This document shows, in pieces, positions 2,894 to 28,063 of a DNA stretch of 28,589 bases (the stretch's first letter is position 1; every line of letters starts with the position of its first letter). Below the pieces are notes generated by a model. It saw only the letters and a list, made by a program, of their open reading frames with translations. It did not search any database and was not told the origin of the DNA. The translations under genes and the position numbers were made by a program. Source of the DNA: Candidatus Eiseniibacteriota bacterium (GTDB taxonomy: Bacteria > Arandabacterota > Arandabacteria > JAGLYR01); contig JAGLYR010000025.1 of NCBI GenBank assembly GCA_023132135.1, positions 1-28,589 of the forward strand, in the 5' to 3' direction.

Positions 2894-2977
2894 TGACCTT
2901 TGGGTCCAGTACCCAATCCCACCTCCTACCTTGTTGCGGGTCAACCAGATCTGGAGACATGCTAATCATCTGCTAAC
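2894..2977 (+). repeat. 84-bp element, copy A
   Basis: First of five direct copies. It starts TGACCTTTGGG and has the dyad TTGGGT-CCAGT-ACCCAA. Invariant bases inside include CC, A.C, TTG and CAA words, and it ends with TGCTAA and TGCTAAC exactly 11 bp apart. It lies between the beta-helix gene promoter region and the AlbA-type gene. It is non-coding in all frames that matter. The sequence outside the 84 bp is not shared with the other copies, so this is the unit boundary. Confidence 0.85.
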
Positions 2978-3196
2978 GGTTTGGCTAGGAACCTGCCTGA
3001 GAACGCGCCATCTTCAGAACCGGAGCCCGGTCGACTCGGAGGAACTTCCCAGGAGAATCACACTGTGTCAGCTCGAGCCTCCGAGCACTCCCCAACGGAA
3101 CCCTTGAAAGTGAAGTGCCTTCGCAGGTAGTATTCCCACTTGGGGTGGCAAGCATCGAGCAGACGCTTATTCGGGGAAACAGTCGGGGAGGTCGCG
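2978..3196. other. Leader before the AlbA-type gene, no clear content
   Basis: This stretch between copy A and the AlbA-type gene shows no reading frame with coding character. I did not see a convincing sigma-70 promoter pair in it. A TTG at 3140 is in frame with the downstream gene but has no ribosome-binding site. Confidence 0.4.
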
Positions 3197-4603
3197 GTGG
3201 ATCTGAAGCAGCTTGAGAAGTTGGTCGCTGCAGGCGAATCCGAGACTGTGGAGTTCAAGAAGTCGACTGGCCAACTGAGACCTGCCGGCCAGACATTGTG
3301 CGGGTTTCTCAATGCCAGTGGTGGACACGTGCTGATTGGCGTGAGCGAGAAGGGTGCTATTCTCGGCCAGCAGGTCTCAGACAGCACTCAGATCGACATC
3401 GCGGCGACCTTGAAGAAGTTCGAACCGCCTGCTTCTGTCGAAATCCAGCGTGTTCCATTGACGGGGGAAGGCGACAGAGAGGTTATCGTGCTGGCCGCTG
3501 CGACACCGGGTAGCCTTCCGTTCACGTTCGACGGTAGGCCGTACCAACGGATCGGGACAACAACCTCCGTCATGCCACAGGAGCGGTACCAGCAGCTGCT
3601 GCTTCAGCGCATCCATAGTCATCAGCGCTGGGAGAACACCCGAGCAGATGTTGGGATTGAGGATCTTGATCAGGAGGAAATCCTGCGGACTGTCCGCGTC
3701 GGAAAAGAGGCGGGGCGTGTGCCCGAGTCCACAGGCGAGGATCTGGGAATCATACTGGATCGCTTTGGACTTCGCATGGACGGAGAGATCTTGAACGCCG
3801 CCGTGGTTCTCTTCGGGACGCACTTCCTTCCAGACTTTCCCCAGTGCCAGCTGCGGTTGGCTCGCTTCAAAGGAACCGACAAGTCGGAGTTCCTGGACCA
3901 GCGCCAGATCCAGGGTCATGCGTTCGACCTTCTCCACGAAGCAATGCTCTTTCTGAGGCGCCACCTCCCTGTAGCGGGGCGGATCCAGCCGGGTCTCTTT
4001 GAACGCGAGGATGAACCGCTTTTCCCGCTTGCCGCACTGCGGGAGGCTTTGGTCAACGCGCTGTGCCATCGAAACTATGCTCTAGTTGGCGGAGCAGTTA
4101 GCGTAGCTGTGTATGATGATCGGCTGGAGATCTGGAGTGATGGTGCTCTACCTCCCGAACTCTCCATCGAGGATCTCAAGAGAGACCATCAGTCCCGTCC
4201 GCCGAATCCGATTATGGCCGACGTTTTCTTTCGACGGGGGTTGGTCGAGCGCTGGGGACGCGGCACCCAGAAGATTGTCGAGCTTTGCGTCAAGGCCGGC
4301 CATCCTGAGCCCGAGTTCAATGAGCAATCTGGCGCTGTTGGCGTCCGTTTCTTACCCAGCGGCTACATTGCTCCAGTGAGAGTGGCTCATGACCTCACCG
4401 AGCGCCAGCGCGAGGTCCTCCAGATCTTGGCGGCTGCTCCTCGAATGCCATTCCGTGAGATCCGCCGTCGAATGGCCAAGGCGCCGCCGGATCGGACCCT
4501 CCGGGAGGACTTGATCCACTTGAAGAGACTCGGGATCGTTGGATCGGAAGGTCATGGGCGAGGAGCGGTCTGGTTCCTGACCAGGGATGGAGATCGTGAA
4601 TAG
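3197..4603 (+). CDS. Schlafen AlbA_2 domain / GHKL-type ATP-binding protein with C-terminal winged helix
   Basis: A 468-aa protein. Residues 1 to about 130 match the AlbA_2 domain (ETVEFKKS, then LCGFLNASGGHVLIGVSEKG). Residues about 275-390 match the HATPase_c_4 type: ALREALVNALCHRNY with the likely nucleotide-binding Asn at 287, then DDRLEIWSDGALP, PNPIMADVFFRRGLVERWGRGT. A DNA-binding winged-helix tail follows (LTERQREVLQIL...RTLREDLIHLKRLGIV). Such proteins are often annotated as RecG-like or transcriptional regulators and occur in defence islands; their exact activity is unsettled. I chose GTG 3197 because GGGGAGG lies five bases upstream; an in-frame TTG at 3140 lacks a ribosome-binding site. 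It is the only gene between 84-bp copies A and B, so it forms a one-gene cassette. A stand-alone regulatory role is an alternative. Confidence 0.85.
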   Translation: MDLKQLEKLVAAGESETVEFKKSTGQLRPAGQTLCGFLNASGGHVLIGVSEKGAILGQQVSDSTQIDIAATLKKFEPPASVEIQRVPLTGEGDREVIVLAAATPGSLPFTFDGRPYQRIGTTTSVMPQERYQQLLLQRIHSHQRWENTRADVGIEDLDQEEILRTVRVGKEAGRVPESTGEDLGIILDRFGLRMDGEILNAAVVLFGTHFLPDFPQCQLRLARFKGTDKSEFLDQRQIQGHAFDLLHEAMLFLRRHLPVAGRIQPGLFEREDEPLFPLAALREALVNALCHRNYALVGGAVSVAVYDDRLEIWSDGALPPELSIEDLKRDHQSRPPNPIMADVFFRRGLVERWGRGTQKIVELCVKAGHPEPEFNEQSGAVGVRFLPSGYIAPVRVAHDLTERQREVLQILAAAPRMPFREIRRRMAKAPPDRTLREDLIHLKRLGIVGSEGHGRGAVWFLTRDGDRE

Positions 4604-4661
4604 GGCCGCGTGCGGCGGAAATAGGGCAAGAATAGGGCAGAAATAGGGCAAGAATAAGGCA
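4600..4661 (+). repeat. Short tandem repeat, unit about 11 bp (AATAGGGCAGA-like)
   Basis: From 4617 the words AAATAGGGCAAG, AATAGGGCAG, AAATAGGGCAAG and AATAAGGCAG follow each other, giving a 22-bp period built from two 11-bp units. The end of the AlbA-type gene (GAATAGGGC at its stop codon) looks like the seed unit. The array also places stop codons in several frames. Slippage expansion from the gene end is a simple explanation. Confidence 0.65.
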
Positions 4662-4776
4662 GCCAGCACATACCCCGTTGGCCATTCCGTGGCCAAGACA
4701 GCCATTTAGCAGCCCAGAGAGGACGAGGCCAATGGCGCAGATAATAAGGCAACAGGCTGCGCTATTTCTGCGCTAT
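4632..4776 (+). other. Long imperfect hairpin region (possible structured RNA or cruciform)
   Basis: The arm at 4632-4650 (ATAGGGCAGAAATAGGGCA) pairs with 4758-4776 at 17 of 19 positions. Inside the 107-nt loop is a second perfect stem, TTGGCCA-TTCCG-TGGCCAA, at 4678-4696. The region follows the AlbA-type gene and precedes 84-bp copy B. It could be a transcription end, a small structured RNA, or a remnant of an inverted duplication of the tandem repeat. There is no T-tract, so a classical intrinsic terminator is unlikely. Confidence 0.4.
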
Positions 4777-4928
4777 TGGCCGGGGCAGTCTTCTGGTCGA
4801 TCATCACCATCTCCACCGATGATGCTCACGTTCACCATCACCACGACGGCGGGCGTGGCTCAAACACCGACGACGGCGACGGTGGGAGCCCGCGGAGAGC
4901 ATCGAGGCCGTCAGGACCAGCGGATGCG

Positions 4929-5012
4929 TGACCTTTGGGCTAGTAGCCCAATACCGCTTTTCAACCTGTTGTCCGGCAAGTGATTCCGGGGGCCTGCTAA
5001 TGGTTTGCTAAC
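4929..5012 (+). repeat. 84-bp element, copy B
   Basis: Second direct copy, aligned to copy A with no indel. It has the best dyad of the five, TTGGGCT-AGT-AGCCCAA. The right end reads TGCTAATGGTTTGCTAAC, showing the two TGCTAA motifs 11 bp apart. It separates the AlbA-type block from the RT-polymerase block. Confidence 0.88.
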
Positions 5013-5056
5013 AGTTTCCCAACATCCAACCACCAAAGCTCTCCCCGAGGTTGTCC

Positions 5057-5086
5057 TTGTAGGTTCCCCATCTGTTCCGCTAGCAT
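5057..5086 (+). promoter_or_regulatory. Putative sigma-70-like promoter shared with the DISARM-like operon leader
   Basis: TTGTAG and TAGCAT are separated by 18 bp. The surrounding 57 bp (from TTGTCCTTGT to TCCAGATG) closely resembles 12420-12475, where the pair is TTGTCA-18-TACAAT. Both stretches lie shortly after an 84-bp element. The boxes here are weaker than in the second copy. Promoter function is inferred. Confidence 0.4.
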
Positions 5087-5168
5087 AGGGTGTCTTCCAT
5101 CCAGATGCTCTCCCCTACCCTGGCCGCCAGCGCGGCGGCGGGATCGGGTGCGGTCGTGAGGAGTGTAA

Positions 5169-5438: not shown

Positions 5439-5688
5439 GGACATAGGGGCTGTTGAAACAGTGATGGCTATTCAGCCTGCAACGACCTCCCTTGTGCAGT
5501 CGCAAAGTAGTCCTTGTATCTCCCAGTATGTTCTCCTAAGATTAGATGTCTTCACCCAGACACGTCTCGGTCGTCTTTGTGAAACAGGCGTTGAGACCTG
5601 ATGGCATGGTTCCAATCCCAGTGCAGCCCTTTCGTGGTGCCATGGGGCTGGTGAAGCCTAGGATCCTCCTACGGAGATATTTGCGAAC
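5439..5688 (+). other. Leader of the RT operon, possible small structured RNA
   Basis: No coding content is seen here. Local stems can be drawn, for example ATGGCA (5601-5606) with TGCCAT (5638-5643), or alternatively CAGCCC (5624-5629) with GGGCTG (5645-5650). Defence RTs often need a nearby non-coding RNA as template or scaffold, which makes this the first place to look. That role is not visible in the sequence itself. Confidence 0.25.
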
Positions 5689-6534
5689 ATGACCGCCATG
5701 CCCAATACAGAGCATGTACACCAACTGTACTATGGCGCGATGGAGCAGCAGAAGGTGGTCCGGATTCTAGCTTTCGTGCTTGAGCTGGTTGCTGCAATCA
5801 TCGCCATCTACGGACGAACTGTTGAAGGTTCCCCAAAGCTGGGCTACGGGCCGCTCTTCGCAGTGCTCCTTCTTTCTGGATCAGTGGTTCTTCGATCCTA
5901 TGCGAAGAATATCCGCGGCTATGCTGAGATTCTCCGGGTTCGCATAGTCCGCGCCGTAGCGTTTGAGCAGGATGTTGGCCCTGCGGAGCGAACGGATGCC
6001 GATGTAGGAGCGCCATGGCTGGCGTCCTGGTTTGCGAGAAGAAGCAGTTGCCCGACCCTAGCAGCCTATTATGCGCCAAGCTCAGGACCGGGTGTACGCA
6101 GGTTACGGGAGCTTGTAGCCCAGAACGCCTTCTTCACATTCCAGCTTCTTCGGACCACGGCCATTGTTTGGGCAACAGTCGCCATATTCGCACTCGTATA
6201 CGTTCTGTGCTACCTGTATCGTTATGCTGTGAATCCACTGCCGACCGACGAGGTCGTTTTCGCGTTTGACTTCTTGCTGACGGTGATAGTGGCGCTGTTG
6301 CTCTTGCGTTCGTTAGATGCTTGGCTCGGGGCATGGCGGATTCATCAAGAAATACGGCTCATAGAGACGGCACTAGGTGCAGTGCCTCCCGACGACCACG
6401 CAAGAATAGAGCAGCTGGTCCGAGCATATGATCAGGAAGTATCTCGAGCCCCTGAAATCTTCACTCGCGTTTACCGGCTGAGGGGATCCCGGATCGGCCA
6501 ACTCTGGGAGACTCGCAGGAAACATTACGTGTGA
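5689..6534 (+). CDS. Four-helix membrane protein, first gene of RT-polymerase operon
   Basis: A 281-aa protein with two pairs of predicted membrane helices, at about residues 24-42, 51-68, 155-178 and 188-207. The two pairs are separated by a soluble stretch of roughly 85 residues, and a charged, helical C-terminal tail follows. The layout recalls SLATT-like membrane modules that accompany nucleotide-based and RT-linked conflict systems, but I see no decisive motif. The first ATG is preceded by GGAG twelve bases upstream; a second in-frame ATG lies at 5698. The stop is followed after only GCC by the ATG of the reverse transcriptase in the same frame, so the two are certainly co-translated. 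A likely role is the membrane effector or anchor of the RT-polymerase system, by analogy with other defence operons. Confidence 0.75.
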   Translation: MTAMPNTEHVHQLYYGAMEQQKVVRILAFVLELVAAIIAIYGRTVEGSPKLGYGPLFAVLLLSGSVVLRSYAKNIRGYAEILRVRIVRAVAFEQDVGPAERTDADVGAPWLASWFARRSSCPTLAAYYAPSSGPGVRRLRELVAQNAFFTFQLLRTTAIVWATVAIFALVYVLCYLYRYAVNPLPTDEVVFAFDFLLTVIVALLLLRSLDAWLGAWRIHQEIRLIETALGAVPPDDHARIEQLVRAYDQEVSRAPEIFTRVYRLRGSRIGQLWETRRKHYV

Positions 6535-6537
6535 GCC

Positions 6538-8139
6538 ATGAGCAACAAATGCCACATAAAGATACCAGGTTCACTGCACTTCGCTCGTGCGATCCTCCGA
6601 GTGCGTAGGGACATGAGTGATGACTGGTTTCCCGATCCTATCCGTTTCAAGGACCAGGCAAACCAGAAGTCGGTCCTCTGGGGCTCTGTAGCTCCAGGAC
6701 AGACCTGTGTTGTCAGGCGTTCGGAGGTTTTCAACGTTCCAAAGGTGGGATTCACCCTTAGGTATGCGCTTCAGGGGATGTTTTCCGAGCGTGTTTTCTA
6801 CCAGGCTCTTGTTGACGCGATCGCCCCTCTCTATGATCCGCTTCTGGACCCACGAGTGTACAGCTGTCGGATTCGCTCCGGGCGGTCTGACTACATGTTC
6901 TGCCCTCCTGTTGTTGCGTGGCGGGACTTCATCGCGGATGCACGCGAGACCCTCTCCTCCCGCAGGGGAGTACTCCTGAAAACAGACATTCAGAATTACT
7001 ATGAGTCAATCTCAATTGGTCTGCTCGCTTCCGAGCTCCTAAGGATTGGGCCAAAGCGCACGGTCCAGGAAACTGTCGACACTACCCAGCAGCTTCTATT
7101 GCAGTGGTGTCCCTATGGGGACCACGGAATACCTCAGAACAGGGATGCATCCGCGTTTCTGGCGAACGCCTTCCTGAAATCCGTGGACAACACCATGGTG
7201 AGAAGGTATGAGCACTACTTCCGCCTAATGGATGATATTGTCATTGTCTGCCGAGACCATCTTCACGCAAGGAAGGCATTGCGTGACCTCGTCATAGCAC
7301 TCCGCCGTCTCCGGCTGAACGTCAATACCAAGAAGACTCACATCCTATCCTATGATGACGAAAAGGTGGACGAGCATCTTCCTCCACCGAACCGCAGGAT
7401 CGAGGAGATTGATACCCTACTCAAGTCCCGCCGTCTGAGCACCTTCAAACGCGGACTCCCTCTGCTGCGAGAGTTCACGCTCGAGACACTGCAGTCAGAT
7501 GATGTCGACGAGACGGCATTGAGATTTTGCCTAAATAGACTGGAGCGGATCAACAGGGTTAGGGGGATTCGCATTGCATGGAAGCCGGTCACGGAGGCAC
7601 TGTTGCCTCAGCTTCGCGATAGACCTTGGACTACAGCCCCAATCACTAAGTATCTTGTCACGGCGCCCATCGACTCGTCACAGCTAGGCGAGGTTGAGCG
7701 GGTGGTCTTGGATCGGCATGTTGCGATATACGAGTGGCAGAACTACCACCTCTGGATCGCACTTGGCTATCATGAGATCAAGACCAAAGCCTTGCTTCAC
7801 AGGGCTAGAGCAATGACCAGAACAAGAGGCCCTGTGCCAACTCGAGCAGCGGCGATACTCTACTTGGGCAAGTGCGGTACCTCGGCAGACAGGGAGAAGA
7901 TAGCTAAGGAGTATGGGAGAGTCAGATCCCCTTTCCTTAAGAGAGCAATTCTGCTTGCCACACAGAAGACACCGAAGTCAACCGCCAGGAGGCAAATATT
8001 GCCCTACTTGACTCCAGAGACGAGGTCCACGCATCAGTGGCTCACTAGAAGAGAAGCAAGTCCGATTTACTACGTGAAGCCTTATCCTCTGACTCCTAGC
8101 GAGTTCTTCGACGATCTGCCGTCAATATCAGGTCCATAA
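6538..8139 (+). CDS. Reverse transcriptase of the Abi/unknown-group (defence) type with helical C-terminal domain
   Basis: A 533-aa protein with the RT palm motifs in order: LLKTDIQNYYESI (catalytic Asp150), GIPQNRDASAFLANAFLKS (motif B region), FRLMDDIVIV (catalytic Asp232-Asp233, with Leu-Met replacing the usual Tyr-x) and LRRLRLNVNTKKTHIL. No maturase, endonuclease or X domain of a group II intron follows. Instead residues from about 290 to the end are helical and repeat-like (AILYLGKCGTSADREKIAKE...FLKRAILLAT), as in HEAT-like tails of defence RTs. It starts three bases after the membrane-protein gene and its stop overlaps the polymerase start as TAATG. Template and primer are unknown; a neighbouring non-coding RNA or protein priming are both possible. 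Catalytic residues look intact. Confidence 0.88.
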   Translation: MSNKCHIKIPGSLHFARAILRVRRDMSDDWFPDPIRFKDQANQKSVLWGSVAPGQTCVVRRSEVFNVPKVGFTLRYALQGMFSERVFYQALVDAIAPLYDPLLDPRVYSCRIRSGRSDYMFCPPVVAWRDFIADARETLSSRRGVLLKTDIQNYYESISIGLLASELLRIGPKRTVQETVDTTQQLLLQWCPYGDHGIPQNRDASAFLANAFLKSVDNTMVRRYEHYFRLMDDIVIVCRDHLHARKALRDLVIALRRLRLNVNTKKTHILSYDDEKVDEHLPPPNRRIEEIDTLLKSRRLSTFKRGLPLLREFTLETLQSDDVDETALRFCLNRLERINRVRGIRIAWKPVTEALLPQLRDRPWTTAPITKYLVTAPIDSSQLGEVERVVLDRHVAIYEWQNYHLWIALGYHEIKTKALLHRARAMTRTRGPVPTRAAAILYLGKCGTSADREKIAKEYGRVRSPFLKRAILLATQKTPKSTARRQILPYLTPETRSTHQWLTRREASPIYYVKPYPLTPSEFFDDLPSISGP

Positions 8140-9758
8140 TGCGCCCAAGCTACCTTCTTTTCAGAAACCCCGTTCACGAACTAGGGCAGGAGCTGGCCGG
8201 TTTCCTGCACGCCCCTGAGGGCAGGGGCGGTTTCGTGAACGTGGTTGATCTGTGCGGAGAGTCCGGGCCAATTGTCGTATTGGGATTGCCAGATCTGGCA
8301 GATGGTCTGAGCGGGAAGACACTCTCGATCACAACGACCTTCGTGGACCTATGTCTCGCCAAGCGCTTGGTGGTTGGTCAGAAGCATCAGGCCAGAGCAG
8401 GAGCAGAGCCGTGGAGCCAAGGGAAGTTGCTTGCCCAGGCAGGCATTTCCGAATCGTACATTGAGCAGTACTTGTGCTGGACAACCGGTGCTTGCACTGA
8501 GGAAGTCGATGCTGCACTTTTGCAGACAGTACTACAGTCTATAGCCACTAGCCTCCAGAAGCTGTTGCGTGAGCTCGACGATGAGCTCCGGACAAAAGGC
8601 GAACGGGAGCGTTTCTTTGATATTGAAGTACCGGTGTCTAATGCCATGCTACGCCAGCAAGTGAGGGGTTTGAGTATCGACCACGTTCGTCTCGAGGGCG
8701 TGCTCGAGCACACCAGCTCATCACTGGCACGGGTGCGGCGTCAATTGAGAATGCGCTTCAATCTTACGAACCCCTCAGACCGCTCGATGGTGAGGGCGCG
8801 ATTGGCTGAGGCTGGCTTCGACAAGGCAACCAATCGGGCTCTCCGAGAGGGAGACAAGGGATGGCTTGAGCTATCGGGGCTTCGTCACGATCTGCCGCGG
8901 CTACTTCACGAGCATCAGACCTTTACGAGAGACAAGTCCACTCTGCTGAAGCTGGGAGCCTTTGGCAGCACTGAGGTCTTCCCGCGCTACAACACGCAAG
9001 GGACAATCACGGGAAGAATCGTGATAACTGAACCAAGTCTGCAGAATCTAAGGAGGGAAAGTCGGGAGGTGATCAGCCCGAGGCCAGGAAGAGTGCTCCT
9101 ATATCCCGATTTCAGCCAATACGAACCTGGCATCTTGGCAGATGAGTCAGGTGATGAGCAATTGATCAGTGACTACAACCGAGGCGACCTGTACGAGCCA
9201 CTGAGCATCGCCTTGTTTGGCGACCGAGCACACAGAAAGCACGCAAAGACGATCTTCATTGCCTTCTGCAATGGCATGACTGAAGAGGGACTTGTTGAGA
9301 TCGCCTCAAGAGCCTCGGGAAGACCGAATGAAGAGTGCCGGGACATCGTAGCCCAGTTCTTTGGCAAGTATATGCGTCTTCGAGATTGGACCGAAGATCT
9401 GTTCGGAGAACTTGAGAACCAAGGACGAGTAGGTTCTCGGCTGGGGAACTACCGCTATCTTGGGGCAGGGGCAGCACCCGGCAGCAGAGCTAGGAACAGG
9501 TGGGCCATCAGCCAAAGAATTCAGGGCACCGCATCGCTGATCCTCAAGCGCGTGATCATTAGGCTGGACAAAGAGGCGCCGGACTGCTGGCCCGTCCTTC
9601 CGATGCATGACGCGCTGCTCTGCGAGGTCCCGAAATCGAGCGCGAGCGAGATCCGGTCTCTCTTGGGAGAGCTGTTTATTTCTTGCTTTCGCGAGGAATG
9701 CCCAAGTGTGGATCCTCGAGTGCACTTCGAGGGATCCGGTTTCGTCGTGGACGGCTAG
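8139..9758 (+). CDS. Divergent family-A (Pol I-like) DNA polymerase paired with the RT
   Basis: A 539-aa protein. Its C-terminal two thirds carry the family-A core: DIEVPVSNAMLRQQVRGLSI (Pol I thumb entry), YNTQGTITGRIVITEPSLQN, motif A PDFSQYEPGILADESGD (Asp324, Glu329), motif B RKHAKTIFIAFCNGMT (Arg366, Lys370) and motif C PVLPMHDALLCEV (His490, Asp491). Both metal-binding aspartates are kept. At conserved O-helix and motif C positions Ile374 stands where Phe is usual, Asn378 where Tyr is usual, and Ala492 where Glu is usual. The first 150 residues show no 3'-5' or 5'-3' exonuclease motifs. The one-base overlap with the RT gene argues for a joint function, such as second-strand synthesis on the RT product. 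It is too short and too divergent to be housekeeping Pol I. Plasmid or phage origin is an alternative source. Confidence 0.88.
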   Translation: MRPSYLLFRNPVHELGQELAGFLHAPEGRGGFVNVVDLCGESGPIVVLGLPDLADGLSGKTLSITTTFVDLCLAKRLVVGQKHQARAGAEPWSQGKLLAQAGISESYIEQYLCWTTGACTEEVDAALLQTVLQSIATSLQKLLRELDDELRTKGERERFFDIEVPVSNAMLRQQVRGLSIDHVRLEGVLEHTSSSLARVRRQLRMRFNLTNPSDRSMVRARLAEAGFDKATNRALREGDKGWLELSGLRHDLPRLLHEHQTFTRDKSTLLKLGAFGSTEVFPRYNTQGTITGRIVITEPSLQNLRRESREVISPRPGRVLLYPDFSQYEPGILADESGDEQLISDYNRGDLYEPLSIALFGDRAHRKHAKTIFIAFCNGMTEEGLVEIASRASGRPNEECRDIVAQFFGKYMRLRDWTEDLFGELENQGRVGSRLGNYRYLGAGAAPGSRARNRWAISQRIQGTASLILKRVIIRLDKEAPDCWPVLPMHDALLCEVPKSSASEIRSLLGELFISCFREECPSVDPRVHFEGSGFVVDG

Positions 9759-9884
9759 GGCATTCCGTAGGATTCCGACCGAGGTATCTTGTTGCACGCC
9801 CAGATGGGAGTCTGCAGTCACGGACGCGTTGACCAGCCAGCATTTGGGGCACGCTCCAAGCAGTGCACTCCAAGGCGTTCACTC
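9759..9884. other. Spacer after the polymerase gene, nothing recognised
   Basis: No gene, strong hairpin or repeat was seen between the polymerase stop and 84-bp copy C. Together with copy C and the following stretch to 10118 it forms a gene-free interval of about 360 bases. Confidence 0.4.
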
Positions 9885-9968
9885 TGAGCTCTGGGTATTG
9901 AACCCAAATCCGACCTGCAACCCTTTGTCCTTCAACGTCTTCCGAACGCTTGCTAGTGGTTTACTAAC
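9885..9968 (+). repeat. 84-bp element, copy C
   Basis: Third direct copy and one of the more divergent: it starts TGAGCTCTGGG, and the second right-hand motif is TACTAAC instead of TGCTAAC. The dyad TGGGT-ATTGA-ACCCA is kept with compensating arms. The length is again exactly 84 bp, with no indel against the others. It lies downstream of the + strand RT operon and downstream of the minus-strand cyclase group, so it is not consistently a promoter. Confidence 0.82.
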
Positions 9969-9998
9969 GGCTTGCGGCGTAGCATCGGGTCCTGCCCA

Positions 9999-10060
9999 GA
10001 CAACCAGCGACACTGCGGGATCGTCACCGAACTATGAAACGCGTACTATGTCCCTGGAAG
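9999..10060 (+). repeat. 62-bp direct repeat R1
   Basis: Aligned without indels to 10653-10714 at about 50 of 62 positions by hand count. Shared words include GCGGGATCGTCA and ACGCGTAC. A shared CTTGCGGC also sits a little upstream of both copies. The two copies flank the small secreted-protein gene on the minus strand. Confidence 0.7.
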
Positions 10061-10118
10061 AGCCCGGTTGATGAGGGTCGGTGGCTGTCCCCGTCGGCCC
10101 GAATTCCTGTCTTGATGC

Positions 10119-10652: not shown

Positions 10653-10714
10653 GACGACCAGGAACACAGCGGGATCGTCAGCGGACTGTGACACGCGTAC
10701 CATATCCTCGGAAG
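10653..10714 (+). repeat. 62-bp direct repeat R2
   Basis: Partner of R1 (9999-10060). It lies just downstream of the cyclase gene's stop on the minus strand, with the small exported-protein gene between the two copies. Its purpose is unclear; duplicated 3' flanks or a recombination scar are possible. Confidence 0.7.
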
Positions 10715-10728
10715 GCAATGGCTCCCGC

Positions 10729-11493
10729 TCAATACGTCATAGCATAGCCAACGAGCCTCTCTCCGTGCTTGCCCACCTTGGGGCCAATCTTGCTGAACGC
10801 GGTACCAGCCGGCACTCCCGCTGCTACGAATATCTTGTATGCACCTTCCGAGACGCAAATGCGGGAGCCCTCTTCCTGGGTTGGTGTCGTATCTCCGGGG
10901 TCTGGGACTAACGTACTCATACGCTGGGCAAAGTTGATTCCGCCGCCCACGTAGTTGAGCTCTCGCTTCACGTCTCTGAACAAATATGCCTCACCAATGT
11001 GAACGCCAATTCTATGCACCAGGGGTTTCACAGCCATTTCGAAGAACTCGTCGTTATATCTGGCGATGCCACGATCTAGGGACTGCACGCACTTCAGCAT
11101 CCCGCCAATCTGATCCTGGTCGAAAACGATTACCATACCATCGCCCGTGGATATCAGCCTGGCCACCTCACACGTGCGTAGAGATTCCCTTATTTTACAC
11201 TGATACCGAACTATCATCTTGAGCTGGGTTTCGTCTGGATTCATCGAAAAACCTACAAGGTCGAGCAGAACCGCCCCGATCTTTTCAGGCTTCATGAGAG
11301 CATCTCGGTATTGTGAGGAAGCCAAAAAACCTTGGAGCTCCGTGCAATCCGGAACTGTGATGAGGTAGAAACCATACTCATGGCCTGGCAGCCTGAACAG
11401 GTACATCCCATCCTTGGTCGAGTACTCCAAGATCAAGAAACCGTCATTGATTGCAGCGCGCAGTTCTTCCAGTTGTTGGGCAGCAGAGCCCAT
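10729..11493 (-). CDS. Class III nucleotidyl cyclase domain protein (254 aa)
   Basis: The catalytic homology domain fills about residues 70-254. Visible motifs are AVLLDLVGFS (metal Asp78), ISTGDGMVIVF (second metal Asp118), HRIGVHIGEAY, LNYVGGGINFAQRM (Asn187 and Arg191 at the transition-state positions) and ICVSEGAYK. The reaction expected is cyclisation of a nucleoside triphosphate; which base is used cannot be read safely. The first 65 residues are an uncharacterised N-terminal region. I chose ATG 11493 because GGAGGGAGGGAGC stands directly before it; an in-frame ATG 15 bases upstream has no such site. A stand-alone soluble cyclase inside a defence island recalls Pycsar-type signalling, but no obvious TIR or membrane effector is next to it, so ordinary signalling remains possible. 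Confidence 0.82.
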   Translation of the reverse strand: MGSAAQQLEELRAAINDGFLILEYSTKDGMYLFRLPGHEYGFYLITVPDCTELQGFLASSQYRDALMKPEKIGAVLLDLVGFSMNPDETQLKMIVRYQCKIRESLRTCEVARLISTGDGMVIVFDQDQIGGMLKCVQSLDRGIARYNDEFFEMAVKPLVHRIGVHIGEAYLFRDVKRELNYVGGGINFAQRMSTLVPDPGDTTPTQEEGSRICVSEGAYKIFVAAGVPAGTAFSKIGPKVGKHGERLVGYAMTY

Positions 11494-11586
11494 GCTCCCT
11501 CCCTCCATTCCAATCGCTTGGCTAACTGGCCATCCCTATGGATGTCGAACCTGTTGAAGACCCCTGTAGCTCCCGTGGCAGGATAC

Positions 11587-12198
11587 CTAGGTACGACTGC
11601 CCAACCCGGGACGCTGGGCCCTTTTGTCAAGAGCAGCCAACACCAAATGGTTCGCGTTCACAGGACTATCCAGCCAAGTCCCAACCATGTCATGGCACTG
11701 AAAGATGTCGGGCGCAGCTGTGTCTGTAACCTTGCCCAGTCGGGACAGGTACTGAACCGCCTCGGGAAGAGATAGATAGGTTCCCGCCCTGTCGGTGAGC
11801 CAGTGGGCGGCGACCTTGCCGCGAATGGGTTCGAGTTGCTTGAGCGCGTCGTTGAGTCGTCTCCGTACTGCTCGGTTCAGTGGTTTGACGGGGGATTGCC
11901 GACCTGCTTCAGAATAGGCCTCGTCCACGACGCGAACGACGCTGTCGAGGGCTCTCATGAGCTGCTGCAACATTGATGCAAGATCACAGAGTGTTATAGT
12001 GATCGGCTTGTTGAACCTCCAGGCTTCAGGCTCCTCGCAGCTCTCCCGGTGTCGTGTCCACCACTCGACCTCCTTACGAAGCTCCCCAGTCCACAGACGG
12101 AGATCGTGGATGCGCTGTGCTCCCTCCCGCGCGATGACTGGATCATCAGGTTTGCGCCACTCAACGTAGAAGATCTGCTCCTCGCCCTTTTCCTCCAT
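11587..12198 (-). CDS. Uncharacterised helical protein upstream of the cyclase (203 aa)
   Basis: This is the first gene of the minus-strand group. The product is charged and mostly helical, with a segment around residues 65-125 that could form a helical bundle (TLCDLASMLQQLMRALDSVV, then RRRLNDALKQLEPIRGKVAA). No signal peptide, membrane helix or catalytic motif was found. The ATG at 12198 has a moderate AAAGG site upstream. The gap to the cyclase gene is under 100 bases, so co-transcription is likely. It might be a partner or target of the cyclase product, but this is only proximity. The family is not recognised. Confidence 0.6.
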   Translation of the reverse strand: MEEKGEEQIFYVEWRKPDDPVIAREGAQRIHDLRLWTGELRKEVEWWTRHRESCEEPEAWRFNKPITITLCDLASMLQQLMRALDSVVRVVDEAYSEAGRQSPVKPLNRAVRRRLNDALKQLEPIRGKVAAHWLTDRAGTYLSLPEAVQYLSRLGKVTDTAAPDIFQCHDMVGTWLDSPVNANHLVLAALDKRAQRPGLGSRT

Positions 12199-12277: not shown

Positions 12278-12361
12278 TGACCTTTGGGCTACTCACCCAA
12301 CTCCGGATTCTAACCCGCTGCTGCGCAACCAGCTACGAGCCACTGCTAACGGCCTGCTAAC
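12278..12361 (+). repeat. 84-bp element, copy D
   Basis: Fourth direct copy, with no indel. It starts TGACCTTTGGG with CCCAA after a 7-base variable centre, and ends TGCTAACGGCC-TGCTAAC. It separates the minus-strand cyclase group from the DISARM-like operon, which begins about 150 bases downstream. Confidence 0.88.
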
Positions 12362-12409: not shown

Positions 12410-12425
12410 CGCACCCAACTTGTCC

Positions 12426-12455
12426 TTGTCACCCACCCTTCTGTTCTACTACAAT
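12426..12455 (+). promoter_or_regulatory. Putative sigma-70-like promoter of the DISARM-like operon
   Basis: TTGTCA and TACAAT are separated by 18 bp, a good match to the bacterial consensus. Because the -10 box overlaps the ATG at 12454, translation from that ATG is implausible, and this supports the downstream start at 12514. The block is shared with 5051-5107 in front of the RT cassette. Confidence 0.55.
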
Positions 12456-12513
12456 GAGGTGTTTTCGTCCAGATGAGAACAGCTTGGTGGCGAGAGGGGG
12501 AGCCGGGCGACCG

Positions 12514-20546: not shown

Positions 20547-23500
20547 AGGCCCGCGACCTCTTCACCACAATTCGGACGGAAGGCGGGCTCCTACCTGCCG
20601 ACCTCCTGGAGCGGATCTCCCGCGGTGACGGTGATCTCAAGGGTCTGGATCCGAAGTCCTACCACCTCGCCGCTGATGAACGCCTCAATGAGATGATCAG
20701 CCGATCCTGGAACCGGATGGTCGGCGCGTGGTCCGGGTTCCGGGCAGCATCGGAGAAGCTTCCGGAGACTGACCTGGGCACCAGCTCCACGCGTGAGCGC
20801 TGGCTGCTGGTCCTGTTCCAGGAACTGGGCTACGGGCGGCTGAGAGCCGCGTCAGCCGTTGAGATCGAGGGCAAGAGCTACCCGATCTCGCATTTGTGGG
20901 ATCCCAGCCCCATCCATCTTGTGGGTTTTCGAGTTGACCTGGACCGGCGGACACCCGGCGTTGCAGGAGCTGCCCGTTCAAGCCCTCACAGCCTGGTTCA
21001 GGAGTTTCTGAACCGGAGCGATGACCACCTGTGGGGGTTCGTGTCTAACGGACTCCGGATGAGGATCCTGCGGGACAACTCCAGCCTCACGCGCCAGGCC
21101 TATGTCGAGTTCGACCTTGAGGGCATGATGGAAGGCGAGGTCTTCGCGGACTTCGTCCTCCTCTGGCTTCTCTGTCATCAGTCGAGGATCGAAGCCGAGG
21201 ACGCCAGGCCTGAGACATGCTGGCTGGAGCGCTGGGCGCAGGCCGCCCAGGAACGGGGAGTCCGCGCTCTCGATACGCTCCGCAAGGGTGTTGAAGCCGC
21301 GATCAAGGCGCTGGGGAGTGGGTTCCTCGATCATCCCGGCAATAATGATCTCCGTGAAAAGCTCCGGTCGGGGACCCTCTCCACCCAGGACTACTACCGG
21401 CAGCTGCTCCGCCTCGTCTACAGGCTTCTCTTCCTCTTCGTGGCGGAAGACAGGGATCTCCTCCTCCACCCGGAGTCCGATGCCAAAGCCCGAGAACGGT
21501 ACGGCCGGTTCTACTCCACGGCGAGACTGAGGCGAATGGCGGAGCGCCTGCGGGGCACCAAACACGCGGATCTGTTCAGGGGATTCCGGATTGTGATGGA
21601 GAAGCTGGGAAGCGACGGAGGCTGTCCCGCCTTCGGCCTCCCGGCTCTCGGCAGCTTCCTCTGGTCCAGGGAGGCAATCGCCGATCTGGAAACCTGCGAC
21701 ATCTCGAACCACGGCATCCTGGAGGCGATCCGGGCTCTTGCATTCACCATCGAAGACAAAATCTTCCGCTCTGTGGACTTCAAGAACCTGGGTTCTGAAG
21801 AACTGGGGAGCGTCTACGAATCTCTTCTCGAACTCCATCCGGAGATCAACACCGACAGCGCCACCTTCGAACTCAGAACCGCCAGCGGCCACGAGCGAAA
21901 GACGACGGGTTCCTACTACACGCCATCCAGCCTCATCCAATGCCTGATGGATTCGGCCCTGGAACCTGTCCTGGACGAGGCAGTGAAGAAGCCCGACCCC
22001 AGGCAGGCCATTCTCGATCTCAAGGTCTGCGACCCGGCCTGTGGCAGCGGTCACTTCCTGATCGCCGCAGCCCACCGGATGGCACGCCGTCTGGCCGCAA
22101 TCGAAACCGGCGACGAAGAGCCCGCTCCCGAGGCTATGCGTCATGCGCTCCGCCAGGTCATCGGACACTGCATTTACGGTGTCGACCTGAACCCGATGGC
22201 CGTCGAGCTATGCAAAGTTGGCCTCTGGCTCGAGTCCTTAGAACCCGGGAAGCCTCTCTCCTTCCTTGATCACCGTATTCTGTGTGGGAACAGCCTGCTG
22301 GGAGCCACCCCGGCGCTCTTGGCCAAGGGCATCCCCAACGGTGCATTCAAGGCCATTGAGGGTGATGACAAGGAACTCGTGAAGGCATTCCGCAAGCAGA
22401 ACCGCGACGAGCGGAGAGGCCAGACGACCATGTTTGCCGAACTGAAAGTTGCCGAGTCGCTCGTGCCCTACCGGACTCTGAGCAACGGCTTGGTCAATCT
22501 CGACCACATTGACGATTCGACCATTGAAGGCATCCACCAGAAAGAGGATCTGTACCAGACACTGTCCCAGTCAAAGAGCCACCGGCGTGCGCGCCTGCTT
22601 GCGGATGCCTGGTGTGCGGCTTTCGTGTGGAAAAAGACGAAGCAATTCCCCTACCCGATCACCGAAGGCGTATTCCGCCAGATCGAGAAACACCCTGAAG
22701 AGACATCCTCCTGGATGGTGGCCGAGATCCAGCGCCTCACGGAGCAGTACCAGTTCTTCCATTGGCACTTGAGGTTTCCAGATGTGTTCCAGGTTCCGGA
22801 AAAGGGCGGGAGGCCAGATGATGAAGAACAGACCGGATGGAGCGGCGGTTTTGACTTCGTCGGTGGCAATCCGCCGTGGGAACGGGTCAAATTGCAGGAG
22901 AAAGAGTGGTTCGCTGGGAGGCGGCCTGACATTGCCCGCGCCCCAAACGCGGCCGCTCGGCGGAGAATGATAGCGGCCCTTGAGCATGAAGATCCGGCGA
23001 TCCTCACCGAGTTTCTTAACGACCGGCGAAAGGCGGAGGGCGAGAGTCACTTGGTGCGAAACACCTCCCGCTATCCACTCTGCGGTCGGGGGGATGTCAA
23101 CACATACGCAGTGTTTGCCGAGCTCAAGCGTGGAATTATCAACCCCTCGGGCCGGGTCGGTTGCATTGTCCCGTCAGGTATTGCTACTGACGATACGACC
23201 AAGTTCTTTTTCCAAGACCTCATGGAGACGCGGGCACTCGCGAGTCTGTACGACTTCGAGAACCGAGCCGCGATCTTCCCCGGTGTCCATCGGAGCTACA
23301 AGTTCTGCCTGCTCACGTTGATTGGTTCCGAGTGCCCGGCGACGAAGGGCGCTGAGTTCGTCTTCTTCGCCCATGCCGTCGAGGAGCTGTACGACCCCGA
23401 GCGCCGCTTCACCCTCTCGGCTGAGGACATCGCGCTCCTCAACCCCAACACTCGCACTTGCCCGATCTTCCGATCGCGTCGCGATGTTGAATTGAACAAG

Positions 23501-25147
23501 CACATTTGCGCCCATACACCAGTGCTCGTTCCGTCTCAGGGTGCTTCTCGCTGGAATGCCTACTACATGCGTCTGATTGACCTCGACGACCACGCGGAAG
23601 ACATCCGCTTCCCCTGGCAAGACAAGGGCGAGAGCTGGAACACTCCCCTTTACGAGTCGAAGCTGGTCAACCTGTTCGACCACCGATTCGCGACGTTTGA
23701 GGGAGTGGACCGAGCCAAATGTGCCAACGGCCAGGCGCGGGGCACCACTATCGAGGAACGTACAAACCCGTCCTTCCAAGTCGTCACCCGGTATCTCGTC
23801 CGCGACGAATTGGCCCGACAGCTATTCGCGAAATACCAGTCCCATACGCAGAGGTGGCTGCTTGTCTGGCGGGATGTTGCCCGCGCCACAGATGAACGAA
23901 CGTCGATCGCGGCAGCCATCCCCAGAGCCCTTGCGACACGGAGTAATCCCTCACTGGGATTCTCACCAGCGAAAGAGGGCTACTTCCTGCTTGCAGGTCT
24001 ATCGTCGTTCGTCTTTGACTACCTTGCCCGACAGAAGGTCGGTGGAATTCACTTCAACTGGCAGGTGCTGGCCCAATTACCGGTAGCCCCTCCGTCAGTG
24101 GCTGCGAGCGTGTCGCGTGAGTTCATTCGCTCCCGCGCGCTGGAACTGACCTACACAGCGTGGGACCTCGAATCGTTCGCGCAGGACTGCGGCTGGTCCG
24201 GACCACCGTTCCGGTGGGACGAGGAGCGCCGTTTCCTGCTCCGTTGCGAGCTGGACGCTGCCTTCTTCCACCTCTACCTATCAGCCACATCAGACTGGCA
24301 ATGGAAACAAGCCCGCATTGCGGAGGGAGCAGTACGCGACGAAACCGCAGATGAGCTGGCAGAGTTGAAGAAGCACTTCCCGACCCCACGCGATGCCGTG
24401 GCCTACATCATGAACACCTTCTCCATCGTGAAGCGCAAGGACGAGAAGCAATACAGCGAGTACCGCACGAAGCGGGTGATCCTGGAGATCTACGACGAGA
24501 TGGCCGAGGCCATGCGCACAGGCAGGCCATACCAGACCCGCCTCAACCCACCCGCGGCTGATCCTCGTATTGCGCACCAGCCGAGACAGCGGGAACGGCC
24601 AGCGGCGCCAGCGCTGGTGCAACCTCGTCGAGTGGGCGCTCTCGATAAATCGCGAGTGTTGCTTCTAGCCACTCCGCGCTGGGAAGAGCGATACAGCACT
24701 TGCGTTCCCCGACTCGATCTCAAGATCGCCGCCGGTCTGTCCAGTGACCAGCAGCATCCCGACTTCAGGGAATGGGTCGAGGTGAATGCATCGCGCCTAC
24801 TTCGGAACGGGATGTTCGTGGCGCAGGTTGTTGGCCGGTCAATGGAGCCGCTGATCTCCGACGGCGCGTATTGCTTGTTTCAGTTCAAGGCACCGCACGT
24901 ATCCGACGGAATGGTGGCGCTCTTCGATCTCCAAGGGGTAACGGATCCAGAGTCGGAAGGGTGCTTCACTGTCAAGAGACTGAGATTGTCGGCGCGTCCG
25001 ACACCGGATGGGCCGCAACGGGTAGCCATGCTCGTCTCTGAGAACGCGGCCTTCGAGCCGATTCCGGTGGAGGAGGAGGGCGTGAGGATGGTGGCGGAGT
25101 TCTTGGAGGTCCTTCGCCCTTTGGATGATAGTGCTGGTGATGGCTAG
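20543..25147 (+). CDS. Eco57I-type N6-adenine DNA methylase fused to a C-terminal S24 (LexA/UmuD-like) peptidase
   Basis: A 1534-aa protein. Residues 1 to about 450 are a helical region typical of large Eco57I/PglX/DrmM methylases. Methylase motifs follow: [20 protein letters not shown] (Asp497), [20 protein letters not shown], and the catalytic NPPW at Asn776. After TGRPYQTRL and a linker (about 1340-1370), residues about 1375-1530 form an S24 domain. It has an Ala1397-Gly1398 pair, nucleophile Ser1433 in VVGRSMEP and Lys1478 in FTVKRLR. The 35-residue Gly-to-Ser spacing fits LexA and UmuD self-cleavage sites. The start overlaps the DrmD-like stop as ATGA, giving strict coupling. The methylase would mark self DNA or take part in recognition. 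The S24 tail could regulate it by self-cleavage under DNA damage, an inference. Plain DISARM methylases, as I know them, lack this tail. Confidence 0.88.
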
Positions 25148-25196
25148 ACTAGAGAGGTGGAATCCTGACTAAGATGACCCAAGATAAAACCACCGT

Positions 25197-25440
25197 ATCG
25201 TGAAGCGTCGCGACGAGCAGACACACGGAGAGTATCGCACCAAGCGGGTGATCCTGGAGATCTATGACGAGATGGCCGAGGCCATGCGCACAGGCAGGCC
25301 ATACCAGACTCGCCTCGATCCGCCGCCGGGGCCGCCCGCTGAGGGCCTGCAAGACTGGCCACCCGGTGCACCACGCCCTGCAAACTGGCCGTTGTCACAT
25401 TCATCCGCCCTTGTGGGTGGACAGTGATGGCACTGCGTGA
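25197..25440 (+). pseudogene. Stranded C-terminal fragment of an Eco57I-type methylase
   Basis: The frame reads [20 protein letters not shown] then [20 protein letters not shown], almost the same as residues 1295-1335 of the upstream methylase. Bases 25242-25309 match 24470-24537 with one mismatch in 68, 772 bp apart. Beyond that point the two diverge: this copy continues DPPPGPPAEGLQDWPPGAPRPANWP and then needs a one-base frame change to read HIHPPLWVDSDGTA before a stop at 25440. No ribosome-binding site or full domain is present, so it is a remnant. It looks like the ordinary methylase tail left behind when the S24 tail was acquired. Homologous recombination between two methylase genes would explain it. 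Confidence 0.7.
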
Positions 25441-25513
25441 TCCTGAAAGGCGGAATGGCCGGGTGAGGGGCATCTAGGGGATGTGTTCCGAAGCAGTCCA
25501 AGGAGGGCTACTG

Positions 25514-27028
25514 ATGGCGATCATGCTCAAGAGACAGATCAGTGATGACGAAAAGGCGGAGATTCTGAAGATGCATGGCCGCAAGTGCTTCGCCACTGGC
25601 CACACGATACCGGAGGGTGACCCGGTACACTTCGACCATATTCGAGCGTTTGGTACGGCGGGTCTCACGGAGATTCAGAACATCGCCCCGATGTGTGAAC
25701 AGCACAACCTTCAGAAGGGACAGCTACCCCTGGAAGACTTCAGAGTGAAGCTGCGCCTGCAGGAGTTCTTCACGGGGGGAGACTCTCAGACTTTGAGACA
25801 CATGCTTGAGTATCTCCAGCTAGCTGGTGAACTAGACGAATTTGGTCAGTCGGTTTCTGCTACTGAGAATGCCGACACAATCGTGATTGAATCCGCGCAC
25901 TGGACTCGTGAGTATACGCTGTACGAATGCGCGACTACCGGATGGAAGTACTTCTACGCTACACTCCCAGTCCAGTTACTTGATAGCGATGATGAGAAGG
26001 ATCCGAACATGGGCCTCCAGCCTCGATACCTGATCTTTGACAAGGTGTTCAAGATGTACAGGCACTTTCAGATGCATCCTGTGTTGCAGCCATCTATCGG
26101 ACGAATCGTCGGGAGCCAAATCAGGTTATTCGACGGACAGCACAAGATTGCAGCTCTATTGTGGACAGGTCGAAGGGAGTTTAAATGCAAGATCTACCTG
26201 GCTCCAGAACTAAGGCTGCTGAACCAGACGAATATCGCGGCGCACGACAAGTTCGCGCAGACACGGTTCTACTCTTCTATCATGGTAATGAAGTTGGGCA
26301 GTCAATTCGGGGCTGATTTCGAGGAATACAAGAGTCTGGAAGATGGTGAACCGAAGAGCGAAGCCGGTCTCATGGCATTCTTGGACCGCAAGGACAACCA
26401 GTCACTGACCAAAGCCGAGCGCAACCGACAGTTCCGCAGCTACCTCTACAACTCCGTACTGGATGCTCCAGATAACAAGTGCAGACAGTTGCTTTCAGCC
26501 AGCAACCGCAGCACAGATGAGAGGCCCCTCACGATCGATATGCTGAGCAAGTCCGTTTTCCAGAGTTTTCTCTATCGCCATCCGGTCGAGGAAGACATGG
26601 CAACTGATGCATACAGGCGGCAGAGTGAGATCGAAAACACAGTCGCGCTGATGAACATGCTTCACGACCACGCACTCGGCAGCTGGGATGCCAAGGCGAG
26701 CCCAGCTGACTCGAATCAGCGCAGACTTAGTCGAATGTTTAGATCGAAGTCGATCATGGCATGGAGCGAACTTCTGCGAGATGCCGTTTGTGGGAAGCTC
26801 GACCTCCAAGACACTGAGGACAGGGCCAGGCCGTTCTATCGTGATCTACGGCCCGAGCAGCTAGAGCAGATCAGCGCTGTTGTCGAACGTCTGGCCAAGT
26901 GGAAGTTCTGGCGTGCGCCAGCCAAGGACGAGATTGACCGAATCCTGGCCGACAACAAGAGCGCCGTGAAGGATTGGCTCAAGAAGCATGGCCTCACGAC
27001 TGGCTACCTAATGGGCGCACCTGAGTAG
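25514..27028 (+). CDS. HNH endonuclease fused to a DGQHR (DndB-like) domain
   Basis: A 504-aa protein. Residues about 20-70 form an HNH nuclease fold: CFATGHTIPEGD, FDHIRAFGTAG (Asp41-His42), Asn56 and CEQHNLQKG (His64-Asn65). Near residue 207 the sequence FDGQHKIAALLWTG matches the DGQHR signature of DndB-related and ParB-like proteins; the remaining C-terminal half is helical and unassigned. ATG 25514 is chosen because AAGGAGGG lies eight bases upstream; an in-frame ATG at 25481 has a poorer site. It follows the DISARM-like operon by about 370 bases and precedes the cyclase-like gene by 36 bases, with which it is probably co-transcribed. A likely role is a nuclease with its own DNA- or ligand-sensing module. 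Whether it belongs to the DISARM-like system or is a second system in the same cassette is open. Confidence 0.75.
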   Translation: MAIMLKRQISDDEKAEILKMHGRKCFATGHTIPEGDPVHFDHIRAFGTAGLTEIQNIAPMCEQHNLQKGQLPLEDFRVKLRLQEFFTGGDSQTLRHMLEYLQLAGELDEFGQSVSATENADTIVIESAHWTREYTLYECATTGWKYFYATLPVQLLDSDDEKDPNMGLQPRYLIFDKVFKMYRHFQMHPVLQPSIGRIVGSQIRLFDGQHKIAALLWTGRREFKCKIYLAPELRLLNQTNIAAHDKFAQTRFYSSIMVMKLGSQFGADFEEYKSLEDGEPKSEAGLMAFLDRKDNQSLTKAERNRQFRSYLYNSVLDAPDNKCRQLLSASNRSTDERPLTIDMLSKSVFQSFLYRHPVEEDMATDAYRRQSEIENTVALMNMLHDHALGSWDAKASPADSNQRRLSRMFRSKSIMAWSELLRDAVCGKLDLQDTEDRARPFYRDLRPEQLEQISAVVERLAKWKFWRAPAKDEIDRILADNKSAVKDWLKKHGLTTGYLMGAPE

Positions 27029-27064
27029 CGTTGACCATGAACTGACGCAGGAGGGCCATATCCA

Positions 27065-27949
27065 GTGGATCGGCGAACACGGGAATCCGGGGATGTCGAA
27101 GTCGAGTGCTACGCTGTTGCCTACTTGGATCTGCTCAATCAGAAAGACGTGCTGAAGAAGATGGCGCGCTGCCTGAGGGATCCCTCAGAGAAGAGCGAAT
27201 TCAAGAAACTGATGCAACAAAGCTACGGGAAAGTCCTGTGTTTCCGGGACGTCTTTGAGAAGACGCTCAGCAATCACATTTCTGCAGTCAAGGGGGACAG
27301 TAACTCGCTTAGCGCTGAGCAAAGAAGCATCATCGAGCGATTGACAAACATGGACATTCGTAGACAGTGTTTTTCTGACACCATTGTCTACTATATACTG
27401 CTAGGGGATCGGGCAGATCGTGTACCTATCGCGGGTGTCTGGAGCCTGCTGGTGGTATCGGCCGCTGTCTTTATGAGCGCTCTGCCTCGTCAGCTTGTTT
27501 TTCGCGGCGCGATCGAGGCGGGACTTGGGATGGAATTCTCGAGAGGTGACATCTACGGTCCCGCTTTGTCTGGCGCACACGCGCTAGAAAGCCACGTTGC
27601 AAGGTATCCCAGGATTGCGATCGGCAACACGATGAGGGAGTATCTGCTATCAGAGTCGCGTGCCACAGACCCCGATGGGGACTTCCGACAATCCACCGCA
27701 CGAGAGTGCTTGTCCTACATCTTCGAAGACCAGGATGGTATCTGGGCCTTGGACTATCTCGGCCAAGGGATGAGGCGTCTACTTCGGTCCTCCGGAGTAG
27801 ATCTGGAGCCGATTTTCAAAGATGCTATCGAGTTCGCGGCCGGAGAGGCTGCGAGGTTCAAGAATGAGGGGAATGAGAAGCTCGAAAAACGGTACAAGAA
27901 GCTGCGTGCATACCTGGAGAAGTGCTGGAGGGAATCGCACGCGGATTGA
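27065..27949 (+). CDS. Cyclase-homology-like protein of unknown activity (294 aa)
   Basis: The N-terminus AVAYLDLLNQKDVL, the central CFSDTIVYYILLGD and LVFRGAIEAGLGMEFSRGDI plus YGPALSGAHALES...YPRIAIG follow the layout of a degenerate class III cyclase-like fold, often annotated only as hypothetical. Asp in YLDLL and in FSDTI sit where cyclases hold metal, but the Asn and Arg transition-state residues are not evident, so catalysis is doubtful. The C-terminal 60 residues are charged and helical. The GTG at 27065 has AGGAGG upstream. It comes 36 bases after the HNH-DGQHR gene and is the last gene before 84-bp copy E. A ligand-binding sensor partnered with the HNH protein is a reasonable guess, not shown. 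Confidence 0.65.
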   Translation: MDRRTRESGDVEVECYAVAYLDLLNQKDVLKKMARCLRDPSEKSEFKKLMQQSYGKVLCFRDVFEKTLSNHISAVKGDSNSLSAEQRSIIERLTNMDIRRQCFSDTIVYYILLGDRADRVPIAGVWSLLVVSAAVFMSALPRQLVFRGAIEAGLGMEFSRGDIYGPALSGAHALESHVARYPRIAIGNTMREYLLSESRATDPDGDFRQSTARECLSYIFEDQDGIWALDYLGQGMRRLLRSSGVDLEPIFKDAIEFAAGEAARFKNEGNEKLEKRYKKLRAYLEKCWRESHAD

Positions 27950-27979
27950 TTGAGGCTGTTCGATCTCCCCCTGATGACG

Positions 27980-28063
27980 CGACCTTTGGGTAGCCAACCC
28001 AATTCCAGATCCCAACCCATTGTCTAGCAAATAGTTAGGCCTGCCTGCTACCACATTGCTAAC
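27980..28063 (+). repeat. 84-bp element, copy E
   Basis: Fifth direct copy, with no indel. It starts CGACCTTTGGG, has the dyad TTGGGT-AGCCA-ACCCAA, and ends TGCTACCACAT-TGCTAAC. It marks the right end of the DISARM-like cassette. An internal GTTAGGC looks like half of an integron attC core but is not at a conserved position in the other copies. Confidence 0.87.

Follow-up and report, generated by a model that had tools for sequence, protein, structure and literature searches.

The contig JAGLYR010000025.1 of Candidatus Eiseniibacteriota bacterium (28,589 nucleotides, here C168; the window is the whole contig) contains five copies of an 84-bp element, named A to E, which divide it into gene modules. 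The elements bear on the question of how modules are built up into defence islands. Each element is probably an attachment site of a lambda-type tyrosine integrase, whose core was originally the anticodon arm of a tRNA-Met gene; taken as a whole, this reading explains the data best. On this reading, four complete modules in the window, and at least one further module on another contig, have joints that can be named as integrase sites derived from a tRNA target. The genome is a draft of 3.4 Mb in 345 contigs. The interpretation is based on sequence, and the movement of modules is something that we infer.

The 84-bp element and its copies

The sequence-only reading of the window had placed five 84-bp copies on the plus strand with about 35 invariant columns. 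The alignment of copies A–E agrees with this: it has 84 columns, no gaps, a mean column identity of 76% and 35 invariant columns (Table 1). Beyond the 84 bp the alignment shows no conservation, and all five copies are intergenic with respect to the main open reading frames (ORFs), so the claims of unrelated flanks and of a position between modules hold. Each copy has a dyad with a variable centre at the left and two TGCTAA-type motifs 11 bp apart at the right, as had been described. The TGACC left end is present in most copies, but element E starts with CGACC, and element C, whose core is the most diverged in the window, has TGAGC and a CTGGG arm. A loose pattern derived from the copies gave five matches in the window and none in 100 dinucleotide shuffles, which is far more than chance would give.

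Table 1. Elements, modules and neighbouring genes in the window
Feature	Position	Strand	Description
Left neighbour of A	528-2765	-	beta-helix/FlgD_ig surface protein, probably host DNA (Pfam)
Element A	2894-2977	+	core GACCTTTGGG-TCCAGTA-CCCAA, 2895-2916; arm repeats TGCTAA 2960-2965, TGCTAAC 2971-2977
Module A-B	3140-4603	+	Schlafen AlbA_2 + RecG-C-like ATPase protein, 487 aa (Pfam PF04326, PF13749)
Element B	4929-5012	+	core GACCTTTGGG-CTAGTAG-CCCAA, 4930-4951; arm repeats 4995-5000, 5006-5012
Module B-C (5689-9758), gene 1	5689-6534	+	4TM-effector-like protein (PADLOC, Pfam)
Module B-C, gene 2	6538-8139	+	DRT reverse transcriptase, UG9 type (PADLOC, Pfam)
Module B-C, gene 3	8139-9758	+	RT-associated PolA (PADLOC, Pfam)
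Element C	9885-9968	+	core GAGCTCTGGG-TATTGAA-CCCAA, 9886-9907; arm repeats 9951-9956, 9962-9968
Module C-D (10729-12198)	10729-11508	-	259-aa protein; weak nucleotidyl-cyclase match PF00211, E 0.047, below cut-off
Module C-D	11587-12198	-	203-aa protein; strand opposite to the other modules
Element D	12278-12361	+	core GACCTTTGGG-CTACTCA-CCCAA, 12279-12300; arm repeats 12344-12349, 12355-12361
Module D-E (12454-27949), gene 1	12454-17709	+	DruE-like helicase (PADLOC)
Module D-E, gene 2	17607-20546	+	DpdE/DISARM-like SNF2 helicase (PADLOC)
Module D-E, gene 3	20543-25147	+	DrmMI/IIG-like methylase (PADLOC)
Module D-E, last two genes		+	515-aa and 294-aa proteins; no significant match
Element E	27980-28063	+	core GACCTTTGGG-TAGCCAA-CCCAA, 27981-28002; arm repeats 28046-28051, 28057-28063

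A profile search had been proposed as a check. Using a covariance model trained on copies A–E, we found three further full copies in the host genome, none of them part of the training: C155:4950-5033 (E = 5e-15), C79:190-273 (2e-12) and C201:1613-1696 (5e-8). The same model gave no match in 97 other genomes. Weak matches in the class were the arm repeat alone or chance. All eight full copies are exactly 84 bp long and free of indels, with pairwise identities of 46–60 of the 84 positions. Since these distances are nearly equal, the conservation lies in short motifs at fixed spacing and does not reflect recent duplication. In the full copies the information per column is 1.5 bits in the half-site stems, about 1.5 bits in the arms and 0.3 bits in the overlap between the half-sites. 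The orientation is uniform within each contig (5/5 sites on C168, 2/2 on C155 and 2/2 on C79). Two copies are partial: C155:951 is a right half from which 88 bp including the core are deleted, at a locus 92–95% identical to C201, and C79:7675-7695 consists of the core only.

The spacer between core and arms carries CAA-N4-TT at columns 49–57 in five of the eight full copies; in the others one of the five letters is off, and the flanking letters are not conserved. The IHF consensus has CAA-N4-TT at its centre, and there are four genes of the HU/IHF family in the genome. The motif may be a putative IHF site, but this is suggestive only.

A promoter- or leader-like block (GTCCTTGT..CC..TGTTC..CTA..AT..G.TGT.TTC..CCAGA) is located at 5052-5105, 5505-5558 and 12416-12472. 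It had been reported as common to B and D; two of the copies do stand just right of these elements, but the third, at 5505-5558, had been missed.

The tRNA-Met core and the integrase-linked arm repeats

On the minus strand, the left end of the element reads TTGGGN7CCCAANGGTC. This pattern has seven exact matches in 3.4 Mb, namely six elements and a tRNA-Met(CAT) gene on contig C256, GTTGGGCTCATAACCCAAAGGTCG, called by ARAGORN. This exact match shows that, read antisense, the dyad corresponds to the 5-bp anticodon stem, its variable centre to the 7-nt anticodon loop and the outer GACC to the variable loop. The elements agree with the C256 tRNA-Met at 13–16 of 16 positions outside the loop and at 2–4 of 7 positions within it; the element loops differ from CTCATAA. 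In IMG/VR, most matches to GACCTTTGGGN7CCCAA have a TATGA centre, i.e., they are antisense tRNA-Met(CAT). The left end thus consists of inverted half-sites around a 7-bp overlap (5-7-5) equivalent to the tRNA-Met anticodon arm, as expected of an attachment site. Anticodon stem-loops are well-known targets of tyrosine integrases, owing to their likeness to core sites that have a 7-bp overlap (PMC8371274, PMC4383910). No tRNA gene was found in the window, in C155 or in the initial 20 kb of either C79 or C201. In this fragmented assembly, C168 and the tRNA-Met gene lie on separate contigs.

At the right end, TGCTAA and TGCTAAC stand 11 bp apart and 42 bp from the core in 8/8 full copies, as expected of arm-type sites. 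A gene for a 388-aa tyrosine integrase directly adjoins the C256 tRNA-Met, and TTTGCTACCGTTTTGCTACC, which overlaps the end of this gene, is a direct repeat of 11 bp that is nearly the same as TGCTAAnGGTTTGCTAAC of the elements. This integrase has a distant relative (37% identity) in another genome, where the repeat, as TTTGCTACCACTTTGCTACC, stands between tRNA-Lys and the end of the relative's own gene. The right-hand repeats of the elements match the direct repeat TTTGCTA[A/C]C x2. We scanned IMG/VR with this pattern, the reversed pattern serving as a control, and found 45 stretches versus 7 for the control. It turned out that 21 of 48 repeats lie near an integrase, i.e., within 250 bp of the end of a tyrosine-integrase ORF, although such positions make up an expected 5.7% of bases (P ~4e-14); for the reversed control the count was 0/10. 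The TTTGCTA(A/C)C direct repeat thus appears to be a general arm-site signature of tyrosine integrases that adjoin tRNA genes, and its link with integrases may help to locate attachment (att) sites in phages and islands. No paper on this arm motif in attachment sites was found in the literature.

The distance from the anticodon stem to the repeat, measured in several IMG/VR loci and two genome loci, is 79–82 bp for Ser, Trp and Lys, 103 bp for Met and 49 bp in locus L082. TTTGCTA(A/C)C repeats with an 11-bp period stand at integrase gene ends beside many kinds of tRNA (in loci such as L074, L081, L091, L094, L104, L047 and L038). Two relatives, G006 and G002, hold the arm repeat alone and not the element. 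In G002 (contig C229, L035:3287-3480), TGCTAACGTTTTGCTAAC lies about 130 bp before a 3' tRNA-Met fragment; this looks like the attR of a tRNA-Met island.

The genome has four Phage_integrase genes, all on contigs other than C168: one XerC-like, one XerD-like and two other tyrosine recombinases. The last two were scanned for IntI, and both scored far below the integron-integrase cut-offs; the others were judged XerC/XerD-like by inspection. The C207 integrase has no TTTGCTA(A/C)C repeat alongside. Integrases of the class have neither the TTTGCTA(A/C)C repeat nor the core nearby, and the sole repeat beside any of them is a diverged TTGCAAAC near an integrase fragment in G005.

Proposed stacking of modules and competing explanations

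Both ends of the element match the two ends of an integrase attachment site, and in particular those of one such site in the same genome, so the element is best taken as an attL-like site. The earlier idea of a recombination site with an inverted-arm crossover core and accessory protein sites is strongly supported by the tRNA-Met core and the integrase-linked repeats. Columns 2–23 would be the core, GACCTTTGGG and CCCAA its two integrase-binding half-sites, and the 7-bp centre, the anticodon loop in the tRNA, the crossover overlap. Columns 67–84 would hold two arm-type sites, TGCTAA and TGCTAAC, with an 11-bp period. IHF bound at CAA-N4-TT would bend the spacer, so that one integrase could bridge core and arms. 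This layout would be that of an attL half, with core, bend and arm repeats on one side. An integrase acting in trans would recombine circles, each carrying a defence module and a single site, into a resident site. The modules would then be separated by directly repeated sites of the same orientation, an arrangement like that of integrons and tandem tRNA islands. The integrase is supposed to act in trans because the window encodes none and the arms of the C256 enzyme have another sequence and spacing. The cognate enzyme would be expected to have TTTGCTAAC x2 at its gene end, with a TTGGG-N7-CCCAAAGGTC core some 42 bp away. Since the elements combine a tRNA-Met anticodon arm with docking repeats of viral-type integrases, the modules were probably stacked by site-specific insertion, and serial insertion of integrase-less defence modules is the best model. 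Binding by such an integrase, the action of IHF, recombination and the order of arrival are steps that we infer. The serial stacking suggested by the sequence-only reading would be consistent with the layout on C168 and C79, but the overlaps of neighbouring sites differ, which a standard integrase would not tolerate.

Several observations weigh against this reading. Among the annotated genes, no integrase was found in or adjoining the window array, so the linked recombinase sought as a check did not appear; nor did the array show an empty site or a circle. The arms of the C256 integrase are ACC and lie 103 bp from its core; those of the elements are AAC, at 42 bp. To the left of the cores there was no sign of an opposite (P) arm. 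Canonical tyrosine integrases require identical overlaps, yet there are seven different 7-bp overlaps among the eight copies of this genome, and only A and C201 share one. Comparison of C155 and C201 as a filled and an empty site failed: they differ by the 88-bp deletion and not by recombination at the core, and the breakpoints are not at the element. The whole element was not found by pattern scans of 85k other genomes and IMG/VR; two clostridial pattern matches were not recognised by the covariance model. The overlaps are the weak point of the model: the enzyme may accept mismatches, or else recombination between neighbouring sites has ceased and the array is locked or fossil.

It is possible, though we regard it as doubtful, that an integron-like capture system has arisen from a phage integrase: attL-type sites with freed tRNA-Met cores would collect large integrase-less defence modules, and the differing overlaps would block the excision of neighbours. 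A rival reading, which is unlikely, is that the elements are relic att sites. Islands with integrases would have accreted, lost these genes and left immobile scars, and there would be no integron-like stacking. This agrees with modules that have no integrase, with overlaps that are now incompatible and with the decay seen in both partial copies (the deletion at C155:951 and the core-only C79:7675). It also has a precedent in the tandem ssrA islands of Dehalococcoides, some of which have no integration module (PMC3146451). However, neutral scars should decay evenly, and in the eight copies the half-sites and arms are strongly conserved without an indel, while the overlap is nearly random. Stems and arms so much better kept than the overlap favour continued protein binding over plain decay.

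The element could also be an operator or promoter region through which a shared regulator controls defence genes. Copies A, B, D and C201 are upstream of a defence gene of the same direction, and the promoter-like block follows B and D. We consider this improbable, since no gene of the same direction clearly follows C, E or C155, the block is separate from the element and at 5505 stands without it, and a regulator would not explain the identity with the tRNA-Met anticodon arm and the integrase arm repeats. It is highly improbable that the minus strand encodes a structured RNA or tRNA mimic, such as a decoy for toxins that cut anticodons. The minus strand does have a 5-bp stem, a 7-nt loop and an AGGTC variable loop like those of tRNA-Met, and in C201 a stem pair is kept by a two-sided change, but the anticodon is not kept, the D, T and acceptor arms are absent, and there is no conserved long pairing in columns 24–84. 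Rfam gave no match in the window, and the arm repeats would be left unexplained. Least credible of all are remnants of miniature inverted-repeat or one-ended transposons spread by a transposase. The dispersal of copies over four contigs would suit them; the lack of indels, the fixed internal motifs, the constant orientation within contigs and the absence of conserved terminal inverted repeats in the alignment would not.

The att-site reading has parallels in several known systems. Lambda attL has a core, an IHF spacer and, on one side, direct arm repeats about 50–70 bp from the crossover; the elements are built alike, but have no P-arm partner and no conserved overlap. Tn916-type elements use a tyrosine integrase with direct arm repeats and tolerate mismatch in variable 6–7 bp coupling sequences. 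They resemble the elements in these repeats and in the variable sequence between half-sites, but their targets are loose and AT-rich, whereas the half-sites here are a fixed tRNA-derived sequence. In the integron attI site the core is flanked on one side by two direct repeats, which the build of the elements recalls, and an integron too is a cassette array between sites of the same orientation. Unlike in integrons, no IntI was found, the modules are operons of 2–16 kb, and, as read by eye from the alignment, the attC ends R'' RYYYAAC and R' GTTRRRY are absent, the element ending in GACC and GCTAAC. The cis-mobilizable elements (CIMEs) known from accretion of integrative conjugative and mobilizable elements in Streptococcus are integrase-less, bounded by att sites and moved in trans by a relative. 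The modules here are likewise integrase-less and bounded by att sites, but CIMEs keep an attL and an attR of different build, whereas each full site here is the same attL-like half.

In the tandem ssrA-specific islands of Dehalococcoides, cargo modules are likewise split by a directly repeated segment of a small-RNA gene, and some islands have no integration genes (PMC3146451). These islands use a serine recombinase, and their repeats, copies of the ssrA 3' end, lie downstream of that gene; the elements have a core of tyrosine-integrase type, arm repeats, a variable overlap and no tRNA gene on the contig. Anticodon-centred islands (Islander; Williams 2002 class A) share the anticodon stem-loop core with the 7-bp loop as overlap (PMC8371274, PMC4383910), whereas the elements lie outside any tRNA gene, restore none and have unrelated loops. 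A tandem tRNA/tmRNA array starts at a tRNA gene and keeps an intact overlap in each repeat, and by the Islander rule each island has its own integrase; none of this is seen in the window. Tandem tRNA/tmRNA islands and accreted integrase-less modules (CIMEs) are thus already known. The array here differs from them in its freed tRNA-like cores outside any tRNA gene, in overlaps that do not match, in having arms on a single side of each full site and in a cargo that is mostly defensive. No paper on defence islands divided by att sites was found in the literature. The core and arm repeats can be used to predict module joints.

Cargo and minor observations

Module D-E appears, from its gene content, to be a large DISARM/Druantia-like operon. 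Within it, positions 24425-24557 and 25197-25329 form a 133-bp repeat (86%), so that part of the end of the methylase-like gene recurs past its stop; this is possibly a remnant of specificity switching. The two-gene pair of module C-D (10729-12198, minus strand) is possibly an unrecognised cyclic-nucleotide defence pair. Just right of element C, 62-bp direct repeats (81%) at 9999-10060 and 10653-10714 bracket about 590 bp.

On C79, the full copy (190-273) and the core-only copy (7675-7695) bracket a type IIG restriction-modification gene among others. On C201 the element stands before AbiEi, a context shared by the half copy of C155; C155 also has non-defence neighbours. A supposed trio of recombinases on C155 turned out to be three ORFs for a beta-helix protein and unknowns. 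L014:21-1804 and L016:700-2555, which belong to different contigs, are 92–95% identical over the element, the AbiEi region and the start of the beta-helix gene, and may be a duplication or strain variants. Beside this segment, about 16.5 kb of C155 are absent from C201. Finally, window positions 28365-28481 are 90.6% identical to C79:11893-12009 (reverse).

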